A DNA stretch of 42,319 nt, from positions 1 to 42,319 of the forward strand of contig JAHCJK010000027.1 of assembly GCA_026184295.1 (NCBI GenBank). Direction: 5' to 3'. The position numbers were made by a program, and so were the translations under genes. Of the stretch, positions 1,789 through 33,482 are shown piece after piece. The notes beneath the pieces are model-generated. The model searched no databases. It saw nothing but the letters and a program-made list of their open reading frames with translations, and was not told the origin of the DNA. The first letter of the stretch is position 1; each line of letters opens with the position of its first letter. This DNA comes from Planctomycetota bacterium (GTDB taxonomy: Bacteria > Planctomycetota > SZUA-567 > H5-PLA8).

Positions 1789-2286
1789 ATGACCTTCGAC
1801 GAACCGGCCGTCACCGGCGTAGTGACCAGCGTCTTCGAGAACATGCTCGGCGTGCCGGCCGCGTTCTCGGCCGATCACGCGGAGCCGCTGGACCAGGTCT
1901 CCGTCGTCGCCTGCGTGCAGATCGGCGGCACGTGGAACGGCGCGGTGGTGCTGGAATTCACCGAACCGCTGGCCAAGCGCATCGCGGCGCTGATGTTCGG
2001 GAGCCCGAGCAACGACGCGACGCCGGCGGAAATCTGCGACGCGGCGGGCGAACTGGCCAACATGATCGGCGGGGCGCTGAAGACGCGGGTGCCGGAACCG
2101 GCGCAGCTTTCGCTGCCCGCGGTCACGCAGGGCGCCAACCTGCGGCTGAGCATCCTGGGCGGAGCCCAGGTGCGCCGCTTGGAGTACGCCTGCGAAGGGA
2201 TGGTCTTCGACGTCCGCATCGAAGAGTGCGCGCCGGGCGCGGCGAAGGCTCACGCCTCGGGCGCCCGGGCCGCGGCGCACGCCTGA
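1789..2286 (+). CDS. CheX/CheC-like receiver phosphatase
   Basis: This 165-residue protein has the alpha/beta layout of the CheC-CheX-FliY phosphatase family. The catalytic signature D-x3-E-x2-N is present as DAAGELAN (D84, E88, N91), followed by MIGGALKTR. Only one clear copy is seen, which points to CheX rather than CheC. Family members dephosphorylate CheY-type receivers. Likely substrates here are the receiver protein encoded just upstream or the receiver fused to FliN at 31893, but this is inference. The ATG follows a ggag sequence. The gene ends 7 bp from the end of the convergent sigma-54 activator. Confidence is high for the family and low for the partner. Confidence 0.83.
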   Translation: MTFDEPAVTGVVTSVFENMLGVPAAFSADHAEPLDQVSVVACVQIGGTWNGAVVLEFTEPLAKRIAALMFGSPSNDATPAEICDAAGELANMIGGALKTRVPEPAQLSLPAVTQGANLRLSILGGAQVRRLEYACEGMVFDVRIEECAPGAAKAHASGARAAAHA

Positions 2287-5775: not shown

Positions 5776-5834
5776 AAACTCCCATCTTCAGCGGCGGCGT
5801 TTGCTTCCGATGAGCACCTATAAGAGAGGTGTTC

Positions 5835-6686
5835 ATGGCGACGCAACCATCGGCCACGCTTTCCTTGCCCGCGGTGCTGCGGAAGACCAGCGACCGTCTG
5901 CCGGTCTGCCCGGCCGTCTTCGGGCGGCTGATCGAACTGCTCGGTTCGGCCGACAGCACCTGCGACGACCTGGCCAAGGTGATCGCGCTCGACCCGATCC
6001 TGGCCTCCGAAATCCTGCGCGTGGTCAACTCCGTGCGCTTCGCCGGCGGCAGCAGCGTCACCAGCGTCGAACACGCGGTGCTGCGCCTGGGCTTCCAGGA
6101 AGTGAACGCGATCGCGCTGGCCATGCAGGCCAAGGGCATCTTCAAGGGCGGCCAGTGGACCGCGTTCAACAGCGCGATCTGGAAGCACTCGGTGCGCACG
6201 GCGGCGCTTTGCGCGCTGATGGCCGCGCGGCAGCGCACGGGTTCCGCGGACCTGCTCTTCACCGCCGGGCTGCTCCACGACATCGGCAAGCTGGTGCTTT
6301 ATGCGTACGACCATGCCTACGAGGCGTGGGCGCACCCCGAGCAGCTTTACGGCAAGGGGCTCGTCTCGGAGGAACTCGCGCGCTTCCGCACCGAGCACTC
6401 GGTGGTGGGCGCCGAACTGCTGCGCGGCTGGCGCTTCTCGGCGCAGTTGGTCAAGCTGGTGGAAACGCACCACGACCTGCCGCCGGGCGCCCAGCCCCTC
6501 TTCGAACTCCTGGCCCACACCGACGCCCTGGCCCATCAGCTTCCCTGGGAAATGGGGGAGCACGCCGAGGCCTCCCATCTGGCGGTCGATCCCGCGCTGC
6601 TAAGCCGCATGAACCTTACACCCGAGATGTGCTGCGACCTGCTGCGCATGGCGACCCAGCGCGTCGAACTGTTTGGAGGCCACTGA
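5835..6686 (+). CDS. HDOD-domain protein (first of a tandem pair)
   Basis: This 283-residue protein is a single HDOD domain. LPVCPAVFGRLIELL, then ALDPILASEILRVVNS and SVEHAVLRLGFQEV give the N-terminal HDOD pattern. The centre keeps LLHDIGKLVLYAY, so the HD dyad is retained although many HDOD proteins lack a working phosphohydrolase site. HDOD proteins usually act as adaptors in signalling, including motility and c-di-GMP pathways. The ATG at 5835 is preferred over the GTG at 5829 because it follows AGAGAGGTG at a suitable distance. It is 3 bp from the second HDOD gene and clearly shares its transcript. No partner is named by the sequence, but the surrounding kinases suggest a scaffold role (inference). 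Confidence 0.88.
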   Translation: MATQPSATLSLPAVLRKTSDRLPVCPAVFGRLIELLGSADSTCDDLAKVIALDPILASEILRVVNSVRFAGGSSVTSVEHAVLRLGFQEVNAIALAMQAKGIFKGGQWTAFNSAIWKHSVRTAALCALMAARQRTGSADLLFTAGLLHDIGKLVLYAYDHAYEAWAHPEQLYGKGLVSEELARFRTEHSVVGAELLRGWRFSAQLVKLVETHHDLPPGAQPLFELLAHTDALAHQLPWEMGEHAEASHLAVDPALLSRMNLTPEMCCDLLRMATQRVELFGGH

Positions 6687-6689
6687 ACC

Positions 6690-7565
6690 ATGACCGGCGC
6701 GACCAGGGAACTGGAAATCATCGAACGCATCGCCGCGGCGAAGAACCTGCCGCCCTGCCCCGTGGTGCTCTCCGCGCTGATGAAGGTCTTGGAGGACCCC
6801 GACGCCACGGTCTCCGACCTGGCCCAGGTGGTCTCGGCCGACCAGGCGCTGACGGTCAACGTGCTGCGCATCGTCAACTCGGCCTTTTACGGGCTGCCGC
6901 GCGCCGTCCGCAGCGTCGAAGAGGCGGCCTTCCGGCTCGGCTTCCGCGAACTCTGGTCGCTCACGGTCGGGATGCGCGCCAGCGAGATGTACCGGTCGCA
7001 GAAGAGCCTGCCGCCCGAGACCGCCGCCGGCCTGTGGGAACACGCCCTCAAGGTCGGGCTGATCGCCAAGTCGCTCTCCAAGCGCACGCGGCTGGGCCAG
7101 CGCGAGGAACTCTTCACCGCCGGCATGGTCCACGACATCGGCAAGCTGGCCTTCTTCTGCCACGACCCCGCACGCGCGGCGCCGACCTACGCCAAGGACG
7201 GCCCGGAAGGCTGCCGCCTGACGGAGTTCGAGCGCGCGCAGTGGGGCGCGGACCACGCGGAACTGGGCGGCGCGCTGCTGCGGCGCTGGAAGCTGCCCGA
7301 GTCGCTCGCGCGCGCCGTCGCGCAGCACCACAACCCCGAGATCGACGACCCCGCGCTGGCCCTGCTGCCGGTGGCCGACGCCATCGCGCACGCGGCGCGG
7401 GACGTGGGCACGCAGGCCGGCGAAGGGATGCTGCGGCTCGATTTCTCCGCCGACCTGGTGACCGGCCGCATGCTGCAGATGCTGCCCCTGCGGGACGCGG
7501 ATTACATCGCCATCGCGACCGAAGCCCTGGCGGACGTGCGAACCTTCATGCATTCCCTGACCTGA
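6690..7565 (+). CDS. HDOD-domain protein (second of a tandem pair)
   Basis: This 291-residue HDOD protein is a paralogue of its upstream neighbour. It has LPPCPVVLSALMKVLEDP, VSADQALTVNVLRIVNSAF, SVEEAAFRLGFRELWSL, and the HD-type core GMVHDIGKLAFFCHDP, followed by VAQHHNP. The extra histidines (HDIGK, AQHHN) make a residual metal-binding site possible, but hydrolase activity is not established. The start is set by GGAGG about 11 bp upstream. The downstream CBS kinase begins 6 bp after the stop, so this is a HDOD-HDOD-kinase operon. That linkage suggests the HDOD pair controls or scaffolds the CBS kinase (inference). Confidence 0.88.
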   Translation: MTGATRELEIIERIAAAKNLPPCPVVLSALMKVLEDPDATVSDLAQVVSADQALTVNVLRIVNSAFYGLPRAVRSVEEAAFRLGFRELWSLTVGMRASEMYRSQKSLPPETAAGLWEHALKVGLIAKSLSKRTRLGQREELFTAGMVHDIGKLAFFCHDPARAAPTYAKDGPEGCRLTEFERAQWGADHAELGGALLRRWKLPESLARAVAQHHNPEIDDPALALLPVADAIAHAARDVGTQAGEGMLRLDFSADLVTGRMLQMLPLRDADYIAIATEALADVRTFMHSLT

Positions 7566-7571
7566 GGCCCC

Positions 7572-8765
7572 ATGAACGGCGAGACCGGCATCCTGCAACC
7601 GGAAGCTCCGCCCGCCACGCGGGCCTGGAACGGCCTGGCGCTCCGGACCGATCCGGCGGTCGCGCCGCACGCCACCTTGAAGGAATGCCTGGAAGCCCTG
7701 AAGCGCACCGGCGCGCCGGTGCTCCTGGTCCTGGAAGACGAACGCCCCGCCGGGGCGCTTTCCGCGGCCATCCTGCTCGACGCGGCCATCGCCGGACGCT
7801 TCGAAGCCCGCGCGCGCGACCTGATGGCGCCCTGCGGCGAAGCGGCGCTCATGGCCGAAAGCCTGCTGGCCGCGCAGCACGCCATGTCCGAAATCCCCGG
7901 CCCCGGGCTGGCCCTGCTCGGCCCGGACGGCCGCTTTCTGGGCTGGCTGGGGCGGTCCGAACTGGCGCAGTACGAATCGCAGCACTACCGCGCGCAGTTG
8001 CGCAAGGCCCAGCGCGTGATGGACGAGATGCGCCAGGAGATCGAGCACATCCAGAACGAGAACGTGGACATCATGGGCATCATGGCGCACGACCTGCGCG
8101 GGCCGCTGGGCTGCGTGCTCAACGCGGCCCAGTTCCTGCTCGACAAGCCGGCCGACCTGACGCCCGCGCAAGCGGACAAGTTCACGCGCATCGTCGTGCA
8201 GGAGGCCCAGCACCTCCTGGAGATCACCAAGGATGTCATGGCCTTCACGCAGAACGCCCAGGGGCGCCTCAAGCTCAGCCTGGAAGCGTGCAGCCCCGTC
8301 CTGGTGATGGCCCGGGCCGCCGGCGTCTACGCCTCCATGGCCGAACGCAAGGGCATCGCCTTCGAGATGGCCATGCCGGCGCCCGAACATCTGCCCGTGG
8401 TCTACGTGGACCTGGAACGCATCCACACGGTGGTCTCGAACCTGCTCGACAACGCCGTGAAGTACTGCCGCAAGGACGACCGCATCCGCTTCGTGCTCGA
8501 ACACGACCACGAGACGGTGACGTTTGTGGTCGCCGACAACGGGCAGGGCCTGGCCAAGGCCGAACTGGGCCGGCTCTTCGTGCGCTTCGGGAAGGGCAGC
8601 AGCAAGCCCACGGGCGGGGAACCTTCCACCGGCCTGGGGCTCGCGATCGCCAAGGAGATCGTGCAGGCCCACGGTGGCAAAATCGACGTGAGCGGCGACA
8701 AAGGACAGGGCCTGACCTTCCGGCTCACCCTGCCCGTCCACACCAAAGTCATTTCCTCGGCGTAG
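7572..8765 (+). CDS. CBS-domain sensor histidine kinase, intact paralogue of the gene at 1
   Basis: This 397-residue soluble kinase starts with a CBS pair: residues ~33-75 (TLKECLEALKRTGAPVLLVL) and ~83-135 (DLMAP...GLALLGPDGRFLGWLGRSEL). A coiled coil (about 137-165) leads to HisKA with H-box IMAHDLRGPLG (H173). The HATPase follows with NLLDNAVKYC, VADNGQGL, LFVRFGKG and STGLGLAIAKEIVQAHGG. No membrane helix is seen. CBS pairs commonly bind adenine nucleotides, so an energy or nucleotide input is plausible but not shown. It follows two HDOD genes and precedes a sigma-54 activator that has its own promoter. The near-identical ATPase motifs show recent common ancestry with the frameshifted kinase at 1-908. 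Confidence 0.92.
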   Translation: MNGETGILQPEAPPATRAWNGLALRTDPAVAPHATLKECLEALKRTGAPVLLVLEDERPAGALSAAILLDAAIAGRFEARARDLMAPCGEAALMAESLLAAQHAMSEIPGPGLALLGPDGRFLGWLGRSELAQYESQHYRAQLRKAQRVMDEMRQEIEHIQNENVDIMGIMAHDLRGPLGCVLNAAQFLLDKPADLTPAQADKFTRIVVQEAQHLLEITKDVMAFTQNAQGRLKLSLEACSPVLVMARAAGVYASMAERKGIAFEMAMPAPEHLPVVYVDLERIHTVVSNLLDNAVKYCRKDDRIRFVLEHDHETVTFVVADNGQGLAKAELGRLFVRFGKGSSKPTGGEPSTGLGLAIAKEIVQAHGGKIDVSGDKGQGLTFRLTLPVHTKVISSA

Positions 8766-8807
8766 GTTCCACGCGATTCCAATTCTTCGTATCCGAATTC
8801 CTGGAAA

Positions 8808-8823
8808 TGGCCCGAAAGGTGCT
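8808..8823 (+). promoter_or_regulatory. Sigma-54 promoter for the activator at 8877
   Basis: TGGCCCGAAAGGTGCT matches the -24/-12 consensus TGGCACGnnnnTTGCT with two changes (A to C, T to G). The invariant GG and GC are correctly spaced. It lies 53 bp upstream of the ATG. A CTTCCGGATG element follows at 8860-8869. Confidence 0.6.
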
Positions 8824-8876
8824 TTTACCCACTCGTCGGCACGGTGCCGAAGGCAATTTCTTCCGGATGCAGAGCC

Positions 8877-10370
8877 ATGGATATGATTACGATCTTCGTT
8901 ATCGACGACCAGGTTGAGACGCTTGAGATCATCAAGTGCGCCCTGGAAGCGCCGGACCGCCGGATCTACTGCTTCGCCAATCCCGCCGAAGCGCTCGAGG
9001 AAGCGAAGGATCAGAGCATCGACATCGTGCTCACCGACCTGCGCATGCCCGGGATGACGGGGCTGGACGTGCTGCGCGAGATCAAGGCGCATTCCGCCGA
9101 GACCGAGGTCATCCTGATGACGGCCTTCGCCGAAGTCGAGATGGCCGTGCAATCGATCAAACAGGGCGCCAGCGACTTCTTCACCAAACCCCTGCGCATC
9201 CCCGAACTCCAGGCCGTCATCGGCAAGCTCGTGGAACTCCAGTCGATGCGCCGCCGCCTCAAGGACCTCTCCGGCGACGGCGTCGCGCCGGTCGGCACGG
9301 GCGAGACGATGCAGCGCGTCGTGGCCCTGGCGCGCACCGTGGCCGAGACCGATTCGTCGGTGCTGATCCTGGGCGAGACCGGCGTCGGCAAGGAGATCCT
9401 CGCCAACTACATTCAGCGCATAAGCTCACGCGCCAACGGGCCTTACGTGAAGGTCAACTGCGCGGCCCTGCCCGAATCGCTGCTCGAATCCGAACTCTTC
9501 GGGCACGAGAAAGGTTCCTTTACGGGCGCGGCCGAACGGCGCATCGGGCGCTTCGAACGCGCGCACCGCGGGACGCTTTTCCTCGACGAGATCGCCGAGC
9601 TGCCCCATCCGGTGCAGGTCAAGCTGCTGCGCGTCCTGCAGAACCAGGAGATCGAGCGCCTGGGCGGGAACCAGCCGATCGTCTGCAACTTCCGGCTCGT
9701 CTGCGCGACGCACCGCAACATCGACGCGCTGATCGAAGAGCAGCGCTTCCGCGAGGATCTGTACTACCGCATCAACGTCTTCCCCATCGAGATTCCGCCG
9801 CTGCGCGAACGCACCGAGGACATCCCCGCGCTGGCGATGCACTTCCTGCGCCGCGTGCGCAGCAAGATCGGGCACGGCCCGCACGAAATCCATCCCAGCG
9901 CGCTGCTGCAACTGACCGAGTACGCCTGGCCCGGCAACGTGCGCGAACTCGAGAACGTGATCGAACGCGCCTGCGTGCTGGCGCGCGGGCAGGTGCTCAC
10001 GCCCGACCTGCTGCGCTTCCGCAACTTGAATCACGCGAGCGAGCCGCGCCGCGTCACGCTGGAGGCCAAGGCCATCGCGGCCTCGGCCGGCGGCGCGAAG
10101 GACGACCTGGTGCCCGTGGGCGTCGCGGAGGCCGAAGCCGCGAGCGGCGGGCACGGGACGGCGCATGCCTCGGGCGGGAACGGAAACGGGAACGGCCACG
10201 CGACCTGGAACGTCGTGGACGCCGAGAACCCGCTCGAAGAAGCCGAGCGCGTGACCCTGAAACTGGTGCTGGAACGCTGCGGCTGGAACTACGTCCGCGC
10301 CGCGCAGGTCCTCAAGCTCAGCCGCTCCACCCTGTACGCCAAAGCCAGCCGCTACGGAATCAAGCGATGA
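8877..10370 (+). CDS. NtrC-family sigma-54 response regulator with GSFTGA loop
   Basis: This 497-residue protein has a receiver (about 4-120; D10-D11, D54 in LTDLRMPG, K104 in FTKP), an AAA+ domain (about 135-375) and a C-terminal Fis-type helix-turn-helix (WNYVRAAQVLKLSRSTLYAK). Walker A is GETGVGKE (166-173). The sigma-54 loop is GSFTGA (213-218), a common natural variant. A low-complexity Gly/Asn/His linker (GGNGNGNGHA) precedes the DNA-binding domain. The ATG at 8877 is chosen because the receiver strand MITIFVIDD begins right after it; a GTG at 8844 would add residues with no domain match. A sigma-54-like promoter lies upstream, so it may be autoregulated. Its stop overlaps the start of a lipoprotein gene (ATGA), which makes them co-translated. 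Confidence 0.93.
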   Translation: MDMITIFVIDDQVETLEIIKCALEAPDRRIYCFANPAEALEEAKDQSIDIVLTDLRMPGMTGLDVLREIKAHSAETEVILMTAFAEVEMAVQSIKQGASDFFTKPLRIPELQAVIGKLVELQSMRRRLKDLSGDGVAPVGTGETMQRVVALARTVAETDSSVLILGETGVGKEILANYIQRISSRANGPYVKVNCAALPESLLESELFGHEKGSFTGAAERRIGRFERAHRGTLFLDEIAELPHPVQVKLLRVLQNQEIERLGGNQPIVCNFRLVCATHRNIDALIEEQRFREDLYYRINVFPIEIPPLRERTEDIPALAMHFLRRVRSKIGHGPHEIHPSALLQLTEYAWPGNVRELENVIERACVLARGQVLTPDLLRFRNLNHASEPRRVTLEAKAIAASAGGAKDDLVPVGVAEAEAASGGHGTAHASGGNGNGNGHATWNVVDAENPLEEAERVTLKLVLERCGWNYVRAAQVLKLSRSTLYAKASRYGIKR

Positions 10371-15358: not shown

Positions 15359-16632
15359 GCGCCGCCACGGTCGAAAACTCGGGCCTGGGCACCAAGGCCG
15401 CGCAGGTCGAGCGCCTTCAGGCGCAGATCGAGCACTTCCTGGTCTCGCAGGCCAAGGCCGAACGCGCGTTCGAAACGCTGACCCGCCGCGTCGAGGAACT
15501 GAAGGCCGAACTCGAGGACACCAACCGCAAGCTGCGCGACAAGGTGAGCGAACTGAACCATCTCAGCGGCCACCTGATCGGCATCCTGCACAGCATGTCC
15601 GACGGCGTGATCGCGCTCGACACCGGCGGCGTGGTGCGCTTCTTCAGCCCCGCGGCCGAAAACCTGACCGGTTCCAGCGGCGGCTCGGCCATCGGCACCT
15701 CCTTCGAAACCTTCGCCGCGTTCGCGCCGGACCTGCTGCGCAACGTCCGCGCGGCCCTGAACGGCCGCTCGGGCCTGCCGCGGCTGCGCGTGGACTGGCC
15801 GGGCGAGGCCGACGCGCGCCCGCTCTCGATCGCCGTCGCGCCGGTGTTTGAACAGCCGGGCGCGATTATCGGCGTCGTGGTGGTCCTGCAGGACCTGACC
15901 GAAGTGACCTCGCTGCAGAAGCGCGTCTTCCAGGTGGAGAAGCTCGCCGCGCTGGGACAGATGGCCGCGGTGGTCGCGCACGAGATCCGCAACCCGCTGG
16001 GCGGGATCGAAGGCTACGCGACGATGCTGCGCGCGGACCTGCAGTACCAGCCCGACCAGCGCCGCTACGCCGAGATGATCGTCGAAGGCATCCAGAGCCT
16101 GAACGGGCTCGTCAACAGCCTGCTGACGTACTCGCGCCCCGTGGACCTGCGCTGCGAATGCGTCGAACTCGAGACGATGCTGCGGCGCCTGTGGGAGATG
16201 GCCAAGGCCGACCCGAACTTCGGGCGCATGGCCTTCCGCGTGGAGATCGAGAACGGCTCGGGCGCATCGCGCGTGCGCGCCGACGCCGGCGCCCTGCGCC
16301 AGGTCTTCACCAATCTGATCCGCAACGCCCTGGAGGCGATGGCGCCGCTGGGAGGCGGGGAACTGCGCATCCGCATCCGCGAGGCGCAGGTGGACGCGCG
16401 CGAGGCCGTGGCGGTGGAGATCGCCGACACGGGCCCCGGCATCCCCGAGAAGACGCGCCGGAACCTCTTTCAGCCGTTCATGACCACCAAGCACAACGGC
16501 ACCGGGCTGGGCCTGCCCACCAGTGCCAAACTGATCGAAGCCCATGGGGGCGAACTGACCTGCACGCCGGAACCGGGAACGGGCGCCTGCTTCCGCGTGG
16601 TCCTGCCGAAAAACAACGAAGCCGCCGACTAG
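15355..16632 (+). CDS. PAS-domain histidine kinase, FlrB/FleS/AtoS-like
   Basis: This 425-residue soluble kinase starts with a coiled coil (about 14-72). A PAS domain follows (about 73-185; SMSDGVIALDTGGVVRFFSPA), then HisKA with H-box AAVVAHEIRNPLGGIEG (H209). The HATPase has NLIRNALEAM, ADTGPGIP, FQPFMTTKHNGTGLGLP. This is the architecture of the flagellar kinases FlrB, FleS and AtoS-like NtrB-type kinases, which control sigma-54 activators. It lies 10 bp upstream of an NtrC-type regulator, its near-certain partner. The ATG overlaps the stop of the TPR lipoprotein. In FlrBC-type systems the signal is a cytoplasmic assembly cue; the same is likely but not shown here. Confidence 0.92.
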   Translation: MSAATVENSGLGTKAAQVERLQAQIEHFLVSQAKAERAFETLTRRVEELKAELEDTNRKLRDKVSELNHLSGHLIGILHSMSDGVIALDTGGVVRFFSPAAENLTGSSGGSAIGTSFETFAAFAPDLLRNVRAALNGRSGLPRLRVDWPGEADARPLSIAVAPVFEQPGAIIGVVVVLQDLTEVTSLQKRVFQVEKLAALGQMAAVVAHEIRNPLGGIEGYATMLRADLQYQPDQRRYAEMIVEGIQSLNGLVNSLLTYSRPVDLRCECVELETMLRRLWEMAKADPNFGRMAFRVEIENGSGASRVRADAGALRQVFTNLIRNALEAMAPLGGGELRIRIREAQVDAREAVAVEIADTGPGIPEKTRRNLFQPFMTTKHNGTGLGLPTSAKLIEAHGGELTCTPEPGTGACFRVVLPKNNEAAD

Positions 16633-16642
16633 GAGGAGTATC

Positions 16643-18073
16643 ATGCAAGTCGAACGTATTCTCGTGGTGGACGACGACAACACGATGCGCGGGTTCCTGA
16701 CCGACGCGCTGCGCCGCGCCGGCTGCGACGTGACGCCCGCCGAGCACGGCGAGGCCGCGCTGGCGCTGCTGGCCGAAGGCAAGACCTTCGACCTCGTGCT
16801 GACCGACATCCGCATGGGCGGCCCGGCCGACGGCCTGGCGGTGCTGGCCAAGGTCCGCGAGACCAGCCCGCAGACGCTGGTGGCGCTGATGACCGCGCAC
16901 GCCACGCTCGACTCGGCGCTTGAAGCCATGCACCAGGGCGCCTTCGACTACCTGACCAAGCCGATCTCCCCCAACCAGCTCGAAGTTCTGCTGGCCAAGG
17001 CGAGCGAGTACCGTTCGCTGGTCGAGGAGAACCGCTTCCACCGCCGCGCCGCGCTGCGCGGGGACGACGGCTTCGAGGACATCGTCGGGCGCAGCGAGCC
17101 GATGAAGGAAGTCTTCCGCCTCGTGGACAAGATCGCGCCGAGTTCGGCCACCGTGCTGATCACCGGCGAGAGCGGCACGGGCAAGGAACTGATCGCGCGC
17201 GCGATCCACCAGCGCAGCCCGCGCGTGGACAAGCCGTTCATCCGCGTCAACTGCGCCGCGCTGCCCGAGACGCTGCTCGAAAGCGAACTTTTCGGCCATG
17301 AAAAGGGCGCGTTTACCGGCGCGGCCGACCGCCGCCCGGGCCGCTTCGAACTCGCGCACCAGGGCACCCTGCTGCTGGACGAGATCAGCGAGACCTCGCT
17401 GGCGCTGCAGAGCAAGCTGCTGCGCGTGCTGCAGGAACGCGAGTTCGAGCGCGTCGGCGGCACGAAGACGCTGAAGGTGGACGTGCGCGTCGTCTGCACC
17501 AGCAACCGCAACCTGCGCCAGATGGTCAAGGAAGGCACCTTTCGCGAAGACCTCTTCTACCGCCTGAACGTCGTGCCGCTGCACCTGCCGCCCCTGCGCG
17601 AACGCGAACGCGACGTGCTGCTGATCGCGGAATACTTCGTCCGCCGCTTCAGCGAGCGCTACCACCGCCCCACGCCGGTGCTGAACGAGAGCGGCCGCCA
17701 GGCGCTTTGCGCGCACGAATGGCCCGGCAACGTGCGCGAGATGGAGAACACGATCGAACGCGCCGTGTTGCTCTGCGAAGGGCGCGAACTCGGCGCCGAA
17801 GCCTTCGCGCTCGGCGGCTCGGCGGCCCGCAGCGCGCCGGCGGCTCAGGCGGCCGGCGCCGCGCGCCTGCCCGACGAGTTCGCCATCGAAGGCATCAACA
17901 ACCTGGCGGAGGTCGAGAAGCGCGTGATCCTGCGGACCCTGCGCATCACCCAGGGCAACCGCACCAAGGCCGCGCAGATTCTGGGGATCAGCGTCCGCAC
18001 GCTCTACACCAAGCTGCGCGAATACGAAGGCAGCACGGTACGCGAAAACGAACTGGCCGAAATGACCGCCTGA
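16643..18073 (+). CDS. Sigma-54 flagellar response regulator, FlrC/FleR-like
   Basis: This 476-residue NtrC-type protein follows a strong AGGAGGAG ribosome site. It has a receiver (about 4-122; D10-D12, D55 in LTDIRMGG, K106 in LTKP), an AAA+ domain (about 145-380; Walker A GESGTGKE 175-182, loop GAFTGA 222-227, Walker B TLLLDEISE) and a Fis-type helix-turn-helix (NRTKAAQILGISVRTLYTKL). It forms an operon with the PAS kinase upstream. Immediately downstream is flgB with a good sigma-54 promoter, which fits an FlrC/FleR role in activating rod and hook genes. Two other sigma-54 activators in the window make the regulon assignment uncertain. Confidence 0.94.
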   Translation: MQVERILVVDDDNTMRGFLTDALRRAGCDVTPAEHGEAALALLAEGKTFDLVLTDIRMGGPADGLAVLAKVRETSPQTLVALMTAHATLDSALEAMHQGAFDYLTKPISPNQLEVLLAKASEYRSLVEENRFHRRAALRGDDGFEDIVGRSEPMKEVFRLVDKIAPSSATVLITGESGTGKELIARAIHQRSPRVDKPFIRVNCAALPETLLESELFGHEKGAFTGAADRRPGRFELAHQGTLLLDEISETSLALQSKLLRVLQEREFERVGGTKTLKVDVRVVCTSNRNLRQMVKEGTFREDLFYRLNVVPLHLPPLRERERDVLLIAEYFVRRFSERYHRPTPVLNESGRQALCAHEWPGNVREMENTIERAVLLCEGRELGAEAFALGGSAARSAPAAQAAGAARLPDEFAIEGINNLAEVEKRVILRTLRITQGNRTKAAQILGISVRTLYTKLREYEGSTVRENELAEMTA

Positions 18074-30284: not shown

Positions 30285-30309
30285 CCGGTCGGATTTTTCT
30301 TCCGGTCGG
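30285..30309 (+). repeat. Direct repeat CCGGTCGG with T-tracts before fliL
   Basis: CCGGTCGG occurs at 30285-30292 and 30302-30309, each followed by a run containing five T residues (ATTTTTC and TCTTTTTC). The 17-bp period places both copies on nearly the same DNA face over two helical turns. The role is unknown; it lies in the leader just before the ribosome site. Confidence 0.35.
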
Positions 30310-30348
30310 TCTTTTTCAGGATGACCCGATTGAAGATAGGAAATGGCC

Positions 30349-30879
30349 ATGTCTAACGCAGCCGCACCCGCTCAAGCCGCCGCGCCTGCAGCCGGAACCG
30401 CCGCCGCGCCGAAGTCGAAGAAGAAGCTGATCGTCATCCTCGCCGCCGGGCTGCTGCTGGGCGGAGGAGGCGCGGGGTCGTACTTCATGCTCTTCGCCAA
30501 GTCCAGCGGGGAAGATGCGCACGTCGAAAAGAAGGACGATCACGGCAAGCCCGAACCCACCGCCGACACGCACCAGCGCGGCAAGATCGTGATCCTGAAC
30601 CCCATCGTGGTGAACCTGCGCGGCTCCAGCGGCACGCGCTACCTGAAGGTGGCGATCGCGCTCGAGACGCAGAACCAGGAAGCCGTGGACGAACTGAAGG
30701 AGATCACCGTCCCGCTGACCGACTTCCTGCGCGAACGGCTCGCCAGCGCCAAGCTCGAGGAACTCGACAACACCGAAGGGCGCAACCGGCTGAAGCGCGA
30801 GATGATGCAGGGGATCAACGACCTGTTGAGCAAAGGCTTTGTGGCCAACCTGTACTTCAGCGAATTCGTGATTCAATAG
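30349..30879 (+). CDS. fliL: Flagellar basal body-associated protein FliL
   Basis: This 176-residue protein has an Ala/Pro-rich cytoplasmic head, one membrane helix (about 27-48; LIVILAAGLLLGGGGAGSYF) and a periplasmic FliL domain. That domain includes NPIVVNLRGSSGTRYLKVAI, VPLTDFLRERLA and MMQGINDLLSKGFVANLYFS. FliL surrounds stator units and supports torque. ATG 30349 suits the AGGA at 30335-30338 better than ATG 30343, which would add two residues. fliM follows 11 bp downstream. Family match is clear. Confidence 0.93.
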   Translation: MSNAAAPAQAAAPAAGTAAAPKSKKKLIVILAAGLLLGGGGAGSYFMLFAKSSGEDAHVEKKDDHGKPEPTADTHQRGKIVILNPIVVNLRGSSGTRYLKVAIALETQNQEAVDELKEITVPLTDFLRERLASAKLEELDNTEGRNRLKREMMQGINDLLSKGFVANLYFSEFVIQ

Positions 30880-30890
30880 GCGGAACGCGC

Positions 30891-31868
30891 GTGAACGACA
30901 TCCTTTCTTCCGAAGAGATCGAATCGCTGCTCTCGGCCGTATCGAAGGGCGACGTCCGTCTCACGCCGCTGCAGCAGGAAGCCCGCGGGACCAACCCGGA
31001 CGCGCGCGTGTACGACTTCACGCACCCGTCGGCGCCGCTGGGCCAGTCGAAGAAGATTCTCGACGCGATCCACGAGGCGCTCGCGCGCAACCTCTCGTCC
31101 TCGCTGAGCATGCACATGGCGGTGACGGTCGAGGCGCGCGTGGCGGGCTTCGAACAGATGTCCTACGCGGAACTGGAACGGCGCTTCCCCGCCGTCGGCA
31201 CCTTCGCCATCGCGCAGCTCGAAGGCGTGGACCTGAAGGCGCTGATGGTCATCTCCCCGCAGATGGGCTCGCAGATGATCGACCGCCTCTGCGGCGGCAC
31301 GGGCGTGCCCGGCGCGCAGGAGCGCATGTACACCGAGATCGAACAGGACCTGATGGACGAGATTCTCGGGTACTTTCTCGAAGAATGGAACGCGGCCTGG
31401 ACGGCGCTGCCCCCGGCGAAGGTGAAACTCGAATCGCGCTGCTCGTCCTCGCAGTGGGTGCGCTACCTATCGTCGGAAGAACAGATTCTCTCGGCTTCGC
31501 TGGAAGTGCGCATGAACGAGAACGTGGGCGTGATCACGATCGCGTATCCGTCGCGGCTGGTGCACTGGATCGCGGAACATTTCGGCACCGAGAACGGCAA
31601 CCACCTTCCGAGCCTGTCCGAGAGCGCGGGCACCGGCGGGGACATCAAGGACGTCGTGGACCAGGTGCCGATCCCGGTCGAGGCCGACCTGGGCCTGGTG
31701 CGCCTGCGCCTGCGCGACATCCTGACCCTGAGCCAGGGCGACGTGCTGCTGATGGACAAGCACGTGGGCGAGAGCATGGAACTGAAGGTCGGCGGGCAGC
31801 TTCGTTACCGCGGGTTCCTGGGCGCCCACCAGGAAAAGATGGTCTTCGGAATCACCCAGAAGCTCTAA
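30891..31868 (+). CDS. fliM: Flagellar motor switch protein FliM
   Basis: This 325-residue protein starts DILSSEEIESLLSAV, which keeps the N-terminal CheY-P docking motif (LSxxEI-x-x-LL). The CheC-like middle domain and C-terminal SpoA domain are complete (QVPIPVEADLGLVRLRLRDI; LSQGDVLLMDKHVGESMEL). FliM connects FliG to FliN in the C ring and receives CheY-P. A conserved docking peptide means free CheY could still act here besides the receiver fused to FliN next door. The start is GTG after GGCGGAAC. The next gene starts 24 bp downstream. Confidence 0.96.
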   Translation: MNDILSSEEIESLLSAVSKGDVRLTPLQQEARGTNPDARVYDFTHPSAPLGQSKKILDAIHEALARNLSSSLSMHMAVTVEARVAGFEQMSYAELERRFPAVGTFAIAQLEGVDLKALMVISPQMGSQMIDRLCGGTGVPGAQERMYTEIEQDLMDEILGYFLEEWNAAWTALPPAKVKLESRCSSSQWVRYLSSEEQILSASLEVRMNENVGVITIAYPSRLVHWIAEHFGTENGNHLPSLSESAGTGGDIKDVVDQVPIPVEADLGLVRLRLRDILTLSQGDVLLMDKHVGESMELKVGGQLRYRGFLGAHQEKMVFGITQKL

Positions 31869-31892
31869 CCAGCAAGACCTTGGAGTCACTTC

Positions 31893-32669
31893 ATGGCCGC
31901 CCGACAAACCGCCCTCGCGCCGATGAACATCATGGTCGTGGACGACGACCCCGCGCTGCGCAGCCTCTTCTCGCAGTACCTGTCCGACGCGGGGCACAAG
32001 ATCGCCGAGGCCGACAACGGCGCCGCGGCGCTGGAATCGATCGCCCGCGCGCCCGTGGACCTGGTGCTGACCGACCTGCGCATGGACGGCGTCTCCGGCA
32101 TCGACGTGCTTAAAGGCGTGCAGGAGAAGCACCCCGAGACCGGCGTGATGCTCATCACCGGGTTCGCGACGCTCGATTCGGCCATGGAAGCGATGCGCCT
32201 GGGCGCCATCGACGTGATCCAGAAGCCGGTGAACCTGGAAGAGTTGGGCAAGAAGATCGACGCGTACATCTCGAAGAAGAAACTCGGCAAGGCGGGCAAG
32301 AGCGGCGAGGCCCAGCCTACCCCGGTCGCGGCCGTGCCCGCGCCGGCGGGCGTGGAAGTTCGCCCCATCGAGCTGCCTCATATGCAACCCGGATCCCCCG
32401 ACGGGCCGGCCGACAGCATCGACCGGATCCTGGACATCCCCGTGACCGCCACCGTGATGATCGGCAAGGCCTCCATGCAGATCTCCGACCTGCTCAAGCT
32501 GGGCCCCGGCACCGTCATCGAACTCCAGAAGGCGGTCGGCGAACCCATGGAACTCCTGATCAACGAGAAGCTGATCGCCTACGGCGAGGTCGTCGTGGTC
32601 AACGACACCTTCGGCCTGCGCGTGACCGGCATCGTCGATCCCAAGCAGCGCATCCAGTCGCTGCGCTGA
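31893..32669 (+). CDS. fliN: Receiver-FliN fusion: CheY-like domain joined to the motor switch protein FliN
   Basis: This 258-residue protein has a full receiver domain (about 11-127): D17-D19 acidic pocket, phosphoacceptor D61 in VLTDLRMDG, T89 and K111 in IQKPV. A Lys then Pro/Ala linker (about 128-170) leads to a complete FliN SpoA domain (about 174-252): SIDRILDIPVTATVMIGKA, LLKLGPGTVIELQKA, GEVVVVNDTFGLRVTGI. FliN normally has a short, disordered N-terminus. The receiver resembles NtrC-type receivers (ATLDSAMEAMRLGAIDVIQKP) more than classical CheY. Phosphorylation would therefore occur on the C ring itself. In Bacillus, cheY lies next to fliY at this locus, so fusion of neighbours is plausible. 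One frame with no internal stop; ribosome site TTGGAG. Confidence 0.93.
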   Translation: MAARQTALAPMNIMVVDDDPALRSLFSQYLSDAGHKIAEADNGAAALESIARAPVDLVLTDLRMDGVSGIDVLKGVQEKHPETGVMLITGFATLDSAMEAMRLGAIDVIQKPVNLEELGKKIDAYISKKKLGKAGKSGEAQPTPVAAVPAPAGVEVRPIELPHMQPGSPDGPADSIDRILDIPVTATVMIGKASMQISDLLKLGPGTVIELQKAVGEPMELLINEKLIAYGEVVVVNDTFGLRVTGIVDPKQRIQSLR

Positions 32670-32701
32670 CGGTCTACGCCTTCGCCGGCAGACGTTCCCC
32701 T

Positions 32702-32720
32702 CGCGCCGCCCGGCGGCGCG
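32702..32720 (+). terminator. GC-rich inverted repeat after receiver-fliN
   Basis: CGCGCCGCC (32702-32710) and GGCGGCGCG (32712-32720) are perfectly complementary around one base, so the folded loop must open by 2-3 pairs. It begins 33 bp after the stop and precedes a new sigma-54 promoter, consistent with an operon boundary. There is no T-tract. Confidence 0.4.
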
Positions 32721-32834
32721 CTCGCGTTGCGCCTTGCCCGCGTAAGCCGGTCCCCTTCCAAGTTCAGCAGGATCACCTGGCAAAAAAATCCTGAGCTGCG
32801 CCGATTTCCGGCAGATTCGGCTGCTTTTTCGAGA

Positions 32835-32850
32835 TGGCATTACGCTTGCT
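32835..32850 (+). promoter_or_regulatory. Sigma-54 promoter of fliO and the export-gate operon
   Basis: TGGCATTACGCTTGCT matches TGGCAYRnnnnTTGCW at all but one position with correct GG/GC spacing. It lies 26 bp upstream of the fliO ATG. ATTTCCGGCAGAT lies just upstream (32804-32816), and a palindrome overlaps its -12 end. Confidence 0.7.
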
Positions 32851-32865
32851 CGGACACTGTCCGAG
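32849..32865. promoter_or_regulatory. 17-bp palindrome overlapping the fliO promoter start region
   Basis: CTCGGACA-C-TGTCCGAG is a perfect 8-1-8 inverted repeat. It starts inside the -12 element and reaches the ribosome site GAGGAGG. The expected transcription start falls within it, so it would act as a DNA operator rather than an RNA hairpin. A bound protein would block sigma-54 polymerase. Confidence 0.5.
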
Positions 32866-32876
32866 GAGGAATACAC

Positions 32877-33482
32877 ATGCGTCTGAATTTCTGGAAACTC
32901 ACGCTCTGCGCACTGCTGCTCGCCCTGGCGATGCCCCGTGCCGCGCGCGCCGAAGATGAGAACGAGATGGTGCTTGCCGGAACGGGCAAGGCCGCGGCGG
33001 CGAAGTCCGGCGCGCCGCTGGCCATGACCACGTCCGAACAGGGCTCGTCGTCCCTGCGGGTCACCGGCACGCTGCTGCTCTTCTTCGGGCTGCTGGGCGG
33101 TGGCGTTCTGATGCTGCGGAGGATGAAAAACGCAACGTCGGGGGGGCGCGAGGCCGCTCCGTCGCTGCAGGTGATGGAACGCCTGTCGCTGGGCCTGAAG
33201 CGCGAACTGCTGATGGTGCGCGCCGGCGAACACGTGCTCGTGCTGGCCGCGCTGAACCAGGACGTGAAGCTGATCGCGTCCATGCCCGCCCCGAACGCCC
33301 CGGCCGCTGCGGCGCCGGCGGCGAGCCCCGCGGGCGAGCCGTCCTTCGAGCAGCTCCTCGGGCGCTTCCAGGTGCACAAGGAACCCGAGGCCGAACGCCC
33401 CGCGAGCGTGGCCGTGCCGAGCAAGATCGACGCGCTCGCCGCCGCCTTCGGCCAGATGTGGCCGTCGGCGAAGGAGCGCTGA
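32877..33482 (+). CDS. fliO: Flagellar export assembly protein FliO
   Basis: This 201-residue protein has a signal-like N-terminus (LTLCALLLALAMPRAARA), a membrane helix (about 61-82; VTGTLLLFFGLLGGGVLML) and the FliO core LQVMERLSLGLKRELLMVRAGEHVLVLA, seen here as LSLGLKRELLMVRAGEHVLV. An Ala/Pro-rich tail follows. FliO helps assemble the FliP ring. ATG 32877 follows GAGGAGG and the sigma-54 promoter; longer in-frame starts upstream would lie before the promoter. fliP begins 3 bp after the stop. Confidence 0.88.
   Translation: MRLNFWKLTLCALLLALAMPRAARAEDENEMVLAGTGKAAAAKSGAPLAMTTSEQGSSSLRVTGTLLLFFGLLGGGVLMLRRMKNATSGGREAAPSLQVMERLSLGLKRELLMVRAGEHVLVLAALNQDVKLIASMPAPNAPAAAAPAASPAGEPSFEQLLGRFQVHKEPEAERPASVAVPSKIDALAAAFGQMWPSAKER

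Follow-up and report, generated by a model that had tools for sequence, protein, structure and literature searches.

A FliN with its own NtrC-like receiver domain in a Planctomycetota flagellar locus, a candidate phosphorylatable part of the C ring

In the flagellar locus of a Planctomycetota bacterium, the C-ring protein FliN is encoded as one chain with an N-terminal, NtrC-like receiver domain, and we read the sequence as hard-wiring this receiver into the C ring. A FliN carrying its own receiver may build the ring, each copy being phosphorylatable on the rotor and thereby setting rotation, a proposal that we consider about evenly poised. The fusion and its parts lie at the following positions of the window, by which we mean the whole stretch of DNA analysed (42,319 nucleotides).

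31893..32669, plus strand: REC-FliN fusion gene (258 aa), a single uninterrupted open frame
31929..32258, plus strand: receiver domain, residues 13-122, NtrC-like (Pfam, residue check, AlphaFold pLDDT mostly 90-97)
32073..32075, plus strand: codon of the predicted phospho-acceptor D61
32259..32423, plus strand: linker, likely flexible (model confidence below 50 from residue 137, to 190)
32424..32636, plus strand: FliN SpoA domain, residues 178-248 (Pfam)

A preliminary description of this DNA had claimed a receiver and a complete FliN SpoA domain in one frame, together with an intact phosphorylation site, and both claims were confirmed. Within the 258 codons, Pfam assigned the receiver half to Response_reg (PF00072) with 99.9 bits over residues 13-122 and the FliN half to FliMN_C (PF01052) with 79.5 bits (cut-off 23.8) over residues 178-248, while the FliN equivalog-domain model TIGR02480 gave 87.4 bits against a cut-off of 84.05. 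All six of the acidic and phosphorylation residues (D17, D18, D19, D61, T89 and K111) are present, so that the PF00072 match is accompanied by the acidic pair, the phospho-accepting Asp, the Thr/Ser and the Lys of a receiver. The FliN-type N-terminal motif VEVRPIELP begins at residue 154, within the linker. The gene stands in the order fliL-fliM-(REC-fliN)-fliO-fliP inside a long flagellar cluster, with GGAG 7 bases 5' of its ATG, and a scan of 30300-33000 for promoters and terminators found none. AlphaFold modeled the receiver confidently and most of the SpoA part at moderate confidence; residues 137-190, comprising the linker and the first SpoA residues, had pLDDT below 50, and the packing between the two halves came without a confident prediction (pTM 0.51).

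The preliminary description had left room for a missed stop or frameshift between the two domains, and this was not borne out. The same fusion, 51% identical and with its gene order preserved, occurs in H5_PLA8 (JABTUM010000001.1; G003), which belongs to a different genus of the window's family, and a profile search of a 5.8-billion-protein collection returned, among the best 120 of 3076 matches, at least 56 clusters (90% identity) that combine PF01052 with PF00072, the window's own being one of them. Because the architecture and gene order recur in H5_PLA8 and the architecture in so many protein clusters, the fusion is not an assembly slip, and an assembly or frameshift artefact is ruled out. 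In an alignment of 59 rows of fused proteins, all phosphorylation residues (the acidic residues, D61, T/S89 and K111) are kept in 20, the window's among them, which we call intact; the other 39, called degenerate, have K111 in none (0 of 39) and D61 in none of the 38 with a letter at that position, where Q is the most frequent replacement (22 of 38). A search with the degenerate profile gave no further fusion among the best 120 of 1758 matches.

The domain search for receiver plus SpoA across genomes, which had been proposed at the outset, showed the fusion to be rare. Of the 9 genomes in the window's order, 2 (the window's and H5_PLA8) have a SpoA domain and both have it fused; in the class, the full fusion was present in the same 2 of 29 genomes. 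Across the phylum, SpoA was present in 230 of 392 sampled genomes and only these 2 yielded the fusion, with either of two profiles, at most 6 and 7 candidates respectively being scored per genome, so that misses are possible; degenerate fusions in particular were not found in the 392 genomes among the up to 7 candidates scored in each. Every frame with both domains among the 196 loci compared came from the window's genome or H5_PLA8, and a profile scan of genome contigs gave at least one fused locus among 80 loci. H5_PLA8 also has a weak third SpoA match (23.6 bits, G003:C2:552904-553053) within a 654-codon open frame. That the fusion might be common and already characterised, a reservation entered in the preliminary description, was not borne out by these searches: it is rare, and we found no description of a receiver-FliN fusion in the open-licence literature.

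The fusion is the sole FliN-type SpoA protein of the flagellar locus, where its neighbors include:

30891..31868, plus strand: FliM, divergent (185.6 bits, below the TIGR01397 cut-off of 219.6)
32877..33482, plus strand: FliO (TIGR03500 35.3 bits, below the cut-off of 55.25; scored on 32886-33482)

It lies beside fliM and fliO/fliP, and a family search of the window's genome (6.39 Mb, 93.9% complete) placed SpoA domains at two sites only, FliM and the fusion. Because no other FliN was found in the genome, we expect the receiver to be fixed in the C ring, and the earlier idea of a permanent ring component is supported in this form, as an expectation drawn from sequence. Also as described earlier, FliM appears to offer a CheY docking peptide: its N-terminus, MNDILSSEEIESLL, resembles the CheY-docking (EIDAL) peptide, a motif named in PMC6946799, and this docking-like N-terminus is kept in both the window's genome and H5_PLA8. 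The FliM proteins of the two genomes (L016 8998-9960 in H5_PLA8) share 28% identity, compared with 51% for REC-FliN, and both score below the NCBIfam FliM cut-off.

Three signaling genes of the window enter the comparisons that follow. The kinase is here called FlrB and the regulator beside it FlrC.

15361..16632, plus strand: FlrB-like PAS histidine kinase, start uncertain (counterpart beside the system in H5_PLA8)
16643..18073, plus strand: FlrC-like NtrC-family regulator
1789..2286, plus strand: CheX-like protein (no match in the H5_PLA8 locus)

Sequence and fold searches bear out the earlier assignment of the receiver to the NtrC type, not the CheY type, with NtrC1, NtrC, FleR, LuxO, Spo0F and FixJ-type receivers all ranking ahead of CheY and NtrC1 (1zy2, 1.9e-24) among the closest matches of the window's receiver. 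The receiver tree that had been suggested was built from 90 rows and 119 columns, 17 of the 39 degenerate rows among them, and its bootstrap had not settled. The intact receivers form their own clade (97/80), which adjoins neither the window's FlrC nor the chemotaxis receivers; the CheY of the window's own genome (contig C168) falls elsewhere, on a long branch of unsure placement. A chemotaxis CheY moved into fliN finds no support in this tree or the fold search. The tree, in setting the intact receivers apart from FlrC, also leads us to reject a recent copy of that neighbor, which is the second-best other match to the receiver in its own genome (44% identity).

At what we take to be the Tyr106 position of CheY, the aromatic switch residue, the intact rows have V (V108 in the window; 19 of 20) or M (1 of 20), and tyrosine is the commonest residue (49%) in 98 control receivers, which are own-genome, H5_PLA8 and database matches and not a random sample. 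The fusion thus shows neither closeness to CheY receivers nor the aromatic switch residue, and because that residue is replaced by V or M, output need not follow ordinary Y-T coupling. On alpha5, K121 is found in 85% of the 20 intact rows and in all 35 of the degenerate rows compared, whereas R is the most frequent residue at this position in the 98 controls (23%), a hint that this lysine may be a contact on the ring shared by both groups.

The two groups differ in how their halves are conserved. D17, D18, D61 and K111 are invariant in all 20 intact rows, as are 29 of the 110 receiver columns overall, and the mean pairwise identity of the receiver is 0.64 in the 20 intact rows vs. 0.45 in 34 degenerate rows (P0127 and P0155-P0158 left out), whereas the FliN half behaves in the opposite way (0.72 intact, 0.79 degenerate). 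A tree built on the FliN half and its motif unites 41 fused rows, including 21 of the 39 degenerate ones, in one clade (100/99) against 46 free FliN rows hand-picked from Planctomycetota and other phyla; within it, support is 99/95 for a clade of the intact rows and 96/95 for another that holds 20 of the 21 degenerate rows. The remaining degenerate row, P0127, adjoins the intact clade on both FliN (91/72) and the receiver (93/96), and since its site is also lost, the site may have disappeared on two occasions. Of the 17 degenerate rows in the receiver tree, 16 group with double-receiver proteins (98/88), on a long branch apart from the intact rows; a tree holding all fused receivers together was 18 log units worse, with a p-AU of 0.262, and hence is not rejected. 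Both trees are of short domains.

Because the FliN halves of the fused rows form one clade, a single fusion origin with a working receiver, followed by at least one and perhaps two losses of the site, is likely; since the receiver tree sets 16 of the 17 degenerate rows apart from the intact ones, the receiver may instead have been swapped, or fusion may have happened a second time. The one degenerate receiver modeled, P0123, is still predicted to have a receiver fold (pLDDT about 90), with NtrC1, DrrB and CheY as best PDB matches. From these patterns, the receiver is likely to be under phospho-control in the window's clade and to act independently of phosphorylation in the sister group. The existence of this larger sister group, with receivers that lack the phosphorylation residues, is something that the letters of the window alone could not show.

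By gene neighborhood, FlrB is the best local candidate for the donor kinase. In about 57 kb of the H5_PLA8 flagellar locus, clear counterparts were found for FlrB (46%), FlrC (65%) and NtrC-a (56%), as well as for two TPR proteins (32-33%, in the same order); the CheX-like protein and the HDOD proteins had no match in that span, and the window's CBS-HKs and hybrid kinase matched only FlrB or receiver stretches there, at about 28-32%. A CBS-HK or the hybrid kinase had been put forward earlier as the donor and the CheX-like protein as the phosphatase, and neither suggestion is supported; lacking a syntenic counterpart in these 57 kb, the local CBS-HKs, hybrid HK and CheX are rejected as dedicated partners. 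The receiver differs by eye from FlrC at the alpha1 specificity positions (4 of 4 in the window, 2 of 4 in H5_PLA8), positions that, after RR468, we take to set kinase specificity, and these differences count against FlrB as the donor.

Other signaling genes of the window include a row upstream of the flagellar genes, at 5829-10370, of two HDOD proteins (so named by eye) followed by a histidine kinase and a regulator of the NtrC family; this kinase has only a 30% match in the H5_PLA8 locus, and the regulator, NtrC-b, matches a third NtrC-type gene of H5_PLA8 (49% over 257 residues). A histidine kinase at the left edge (37-908) is read as two overlapping frames (37-699 and 537-908), reflecting either a broken gene or a sequencing error. 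On horizontal gain of the whole flagellar locus we make no call, because, H5_PLA8 aside, the FlhA, FliP and FlhB proteins resemble those of the same class and those of other phyla to about the same degree.

The earlier remark that no cheA is visible in the window stands for the window's contig, which has no CheW-domain match, but not for the genome, since the first 20 kb of contig C168 (L096) encode a CheA-REC, CheY, CheX, CheD, two CheB, CheR, four CheW and four MCPs. The CheX of this cluster is the second of the genome beside the CheX-like protein at 1789-2286, which has the intact-looking stretch GELANMIGG when read against ExxN, presumably the motif of CheX. In H5_PLA8, three CheW-domain matches were found, all in one stretch that also holds a CheA hybrid, CheB, CheR, an MCP, hybrid kinases and a single-domain receiver. 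G004 (88% complete), of the same genus as H5_PLA8, has no SpoA match yet three CheW matches in a span of the same size, and because a SpoA-less genome has so similar a span, the H5_PLA8 flagellum has no clear link to any chemosensory operon. Neither SpoA nor CheW matches were found in G005, of the same genus as the window's genome.

The mechanism that we favor for the window's clade would begin with a histidine kinase phosphorylating D61 on the rotor itself. Phosphorylation would alter the contact of the alpha4-beta5-alpha5 face with FliM/FliN, and the changed contacts would bias the direction or speed of rotation, alongside the docking of free CheY on FliM. The corresponding domain of the sister group, without phosphorylation residues, would act as a fixed module of the ring. 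An enteric ring has about 34 FliM. If the ring has the FliM1:FliN3 composition that PMC10128058 and PMC11302681 argue for in E. coli and Salmonella, a ring of 34 would carry about 100 receivers. Contacts of CheY with FliM_N, FliM_M and FliN are reported (PMC7355467, PMC10128058), so that a receiver on FliN would sit near an input site. Counted against phospho-control of rotation is the complete CheY system elsewhere in the genome. The wider proposition, that two-component signaling is wired into the rotor with no diffusing messenger and that the sister-group receiver is frozen as a phosphorylation-free structural switch, we hold at somewhat less than even strength.

Because 39 of the 59 rows are without the site, phosphorylation is not essential to the architecture, and the receiver might instead serve the C ring as a module for architecture or protein binding, its phosphorylation being minor or unimportant. 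The degenerate rows keep the domain with K111 in 0 of 39 and D61 in 0 of 38, P0123 retains a predicted receiver fold, and P0127, beside the intact clade, is also without the site, which was maybe lost twice. We nevertheless judge this explanation unlikely; the window's clade keeps all phosphorylation residues in 20 of 20 rows, and its receiver is more constrained than the degenerate one. Slightly less likely still is a receiver that reports C-ring assembly, an FlrB-type kinase docking on the finished ring and tuning or titrating the flow of phosphate to FlrC. Of the two-component genes, FlrB, FlrC and NtrC-a are those clearly matched next to the system in H5_PLA8, the receiver is NtrC-like, and FlrBC activity in V. 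cholerae requires the export gate, FliF and FliG (PMC7064773); FliM and FliN, however, are dispensable for that activity (PMC7064773), and the receiver stands apart from FlrC both in the tree and, by eye, at the alpha1 specificity positions.

Two products, REC-FliN at full length and a shorter FliN translated from within the gene, would put receivers on only part of the ring, as an internal start in an SctQ gene (PMC8553256) might suggest. An internal start of the SctQ type with a ribosome-binding site is absent from the window's linker, no exact Shine-Dalgarno match preceding its in-frame ATG, GTG or CTG codons, but there is one in the H5_PLA8 orthologue, where an in-frame linker ATG (fusion residue 155, L016) has AAGGAGG 8 bases upstream; such a 7-base match occurs at 1 of 121 internal ATGs in 11 flagellar genes of the window. 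A Met coincides with the start of the FliN motif in 17 of 39 degenerate rows (P0022, P0121, P0122, P0124-P0126, P0128-P0134, P0137, P0152, P0156 and P0157), against a background of 12 Met among the 982 linker residues that the 59 rows have in total, but in 0 of 20 intact rows; the Met may be the scar of an old fliN start, and kinship among the rows inflates its count. We regard two products as improbable. That the receiver gates export, its phosphorylation controlling FliH-FliI delivery at FliN and not rotation, is more improbable still, although FliH binds the FliM_C-FliN module (PMC7355467) and the linker that joins the receiver to FliN is likely flexible.

The way in which a bound receiver flips the C ring is disputed, as is its site of action on FliM and FliN (PMC7355467, PMC10128058, PMC11302681). 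Having receiver and FliN as one chain would fix the stoichiometry and place of the signal, and phospho-mimic alleles would therefore test local activation and conformational spread without the kinetics of CheY binding. Furthermore, phospho-competent and phospho-dead relatives that likely stem from one fusion would constitute a natural experiment on what a receiver does in the ring apart from phosphorylation. Should the preferred reading, phosphorylation of the receiver on the rotor, prove true, a sensor kinase would write its own state onto the ring through about a hundred receivers per motor.

Among known systems, NtrC/FlrC-family receivers are the closest to that of the fusion in sequence and fold, but their output, an AAA+ ATPase and DNA binding, is different and the intact REC-FliN receivers form a clade of their own. 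The diversified C rings of Campylobacter resemble the fusion in having extra SpoA paralogues and domains, and the portions of PMC6946799 available describe no receiver domain in them. The Cle proteins of Caulobacter are, similarly, CheY-like domains that tune the motor, and their activation is independent of phosphorylation; they are, however, free proteins driven by c-di-GMP via a C-terminal extension and are not fused to a ring protein (PMC5677366). Enteric CheY, in docking on FliM, is likewise a receiver acting on FliM/FliN of the C ring, but it diffuses and binds reversibly, whereas the receiver described here is covalent to FliN, NtrC-like and without the aromatic switch residue. FliY of Bacillus and Thermotoga shares with the fusion a chemotaxis-signaling domain N-terminal to the SpoA domain of a C-ring protein. 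The fusion scores 104.7 bits against the FliY model NF005995 (cut-off 218) and has no CheC or CheX domain by Pfam, and the roles of the two N-terminal domains are opposed: the CheC phosphatase fold of FliY removes phosphate from CheY, whereas a receiver on FliN would be a taker of phosphate.
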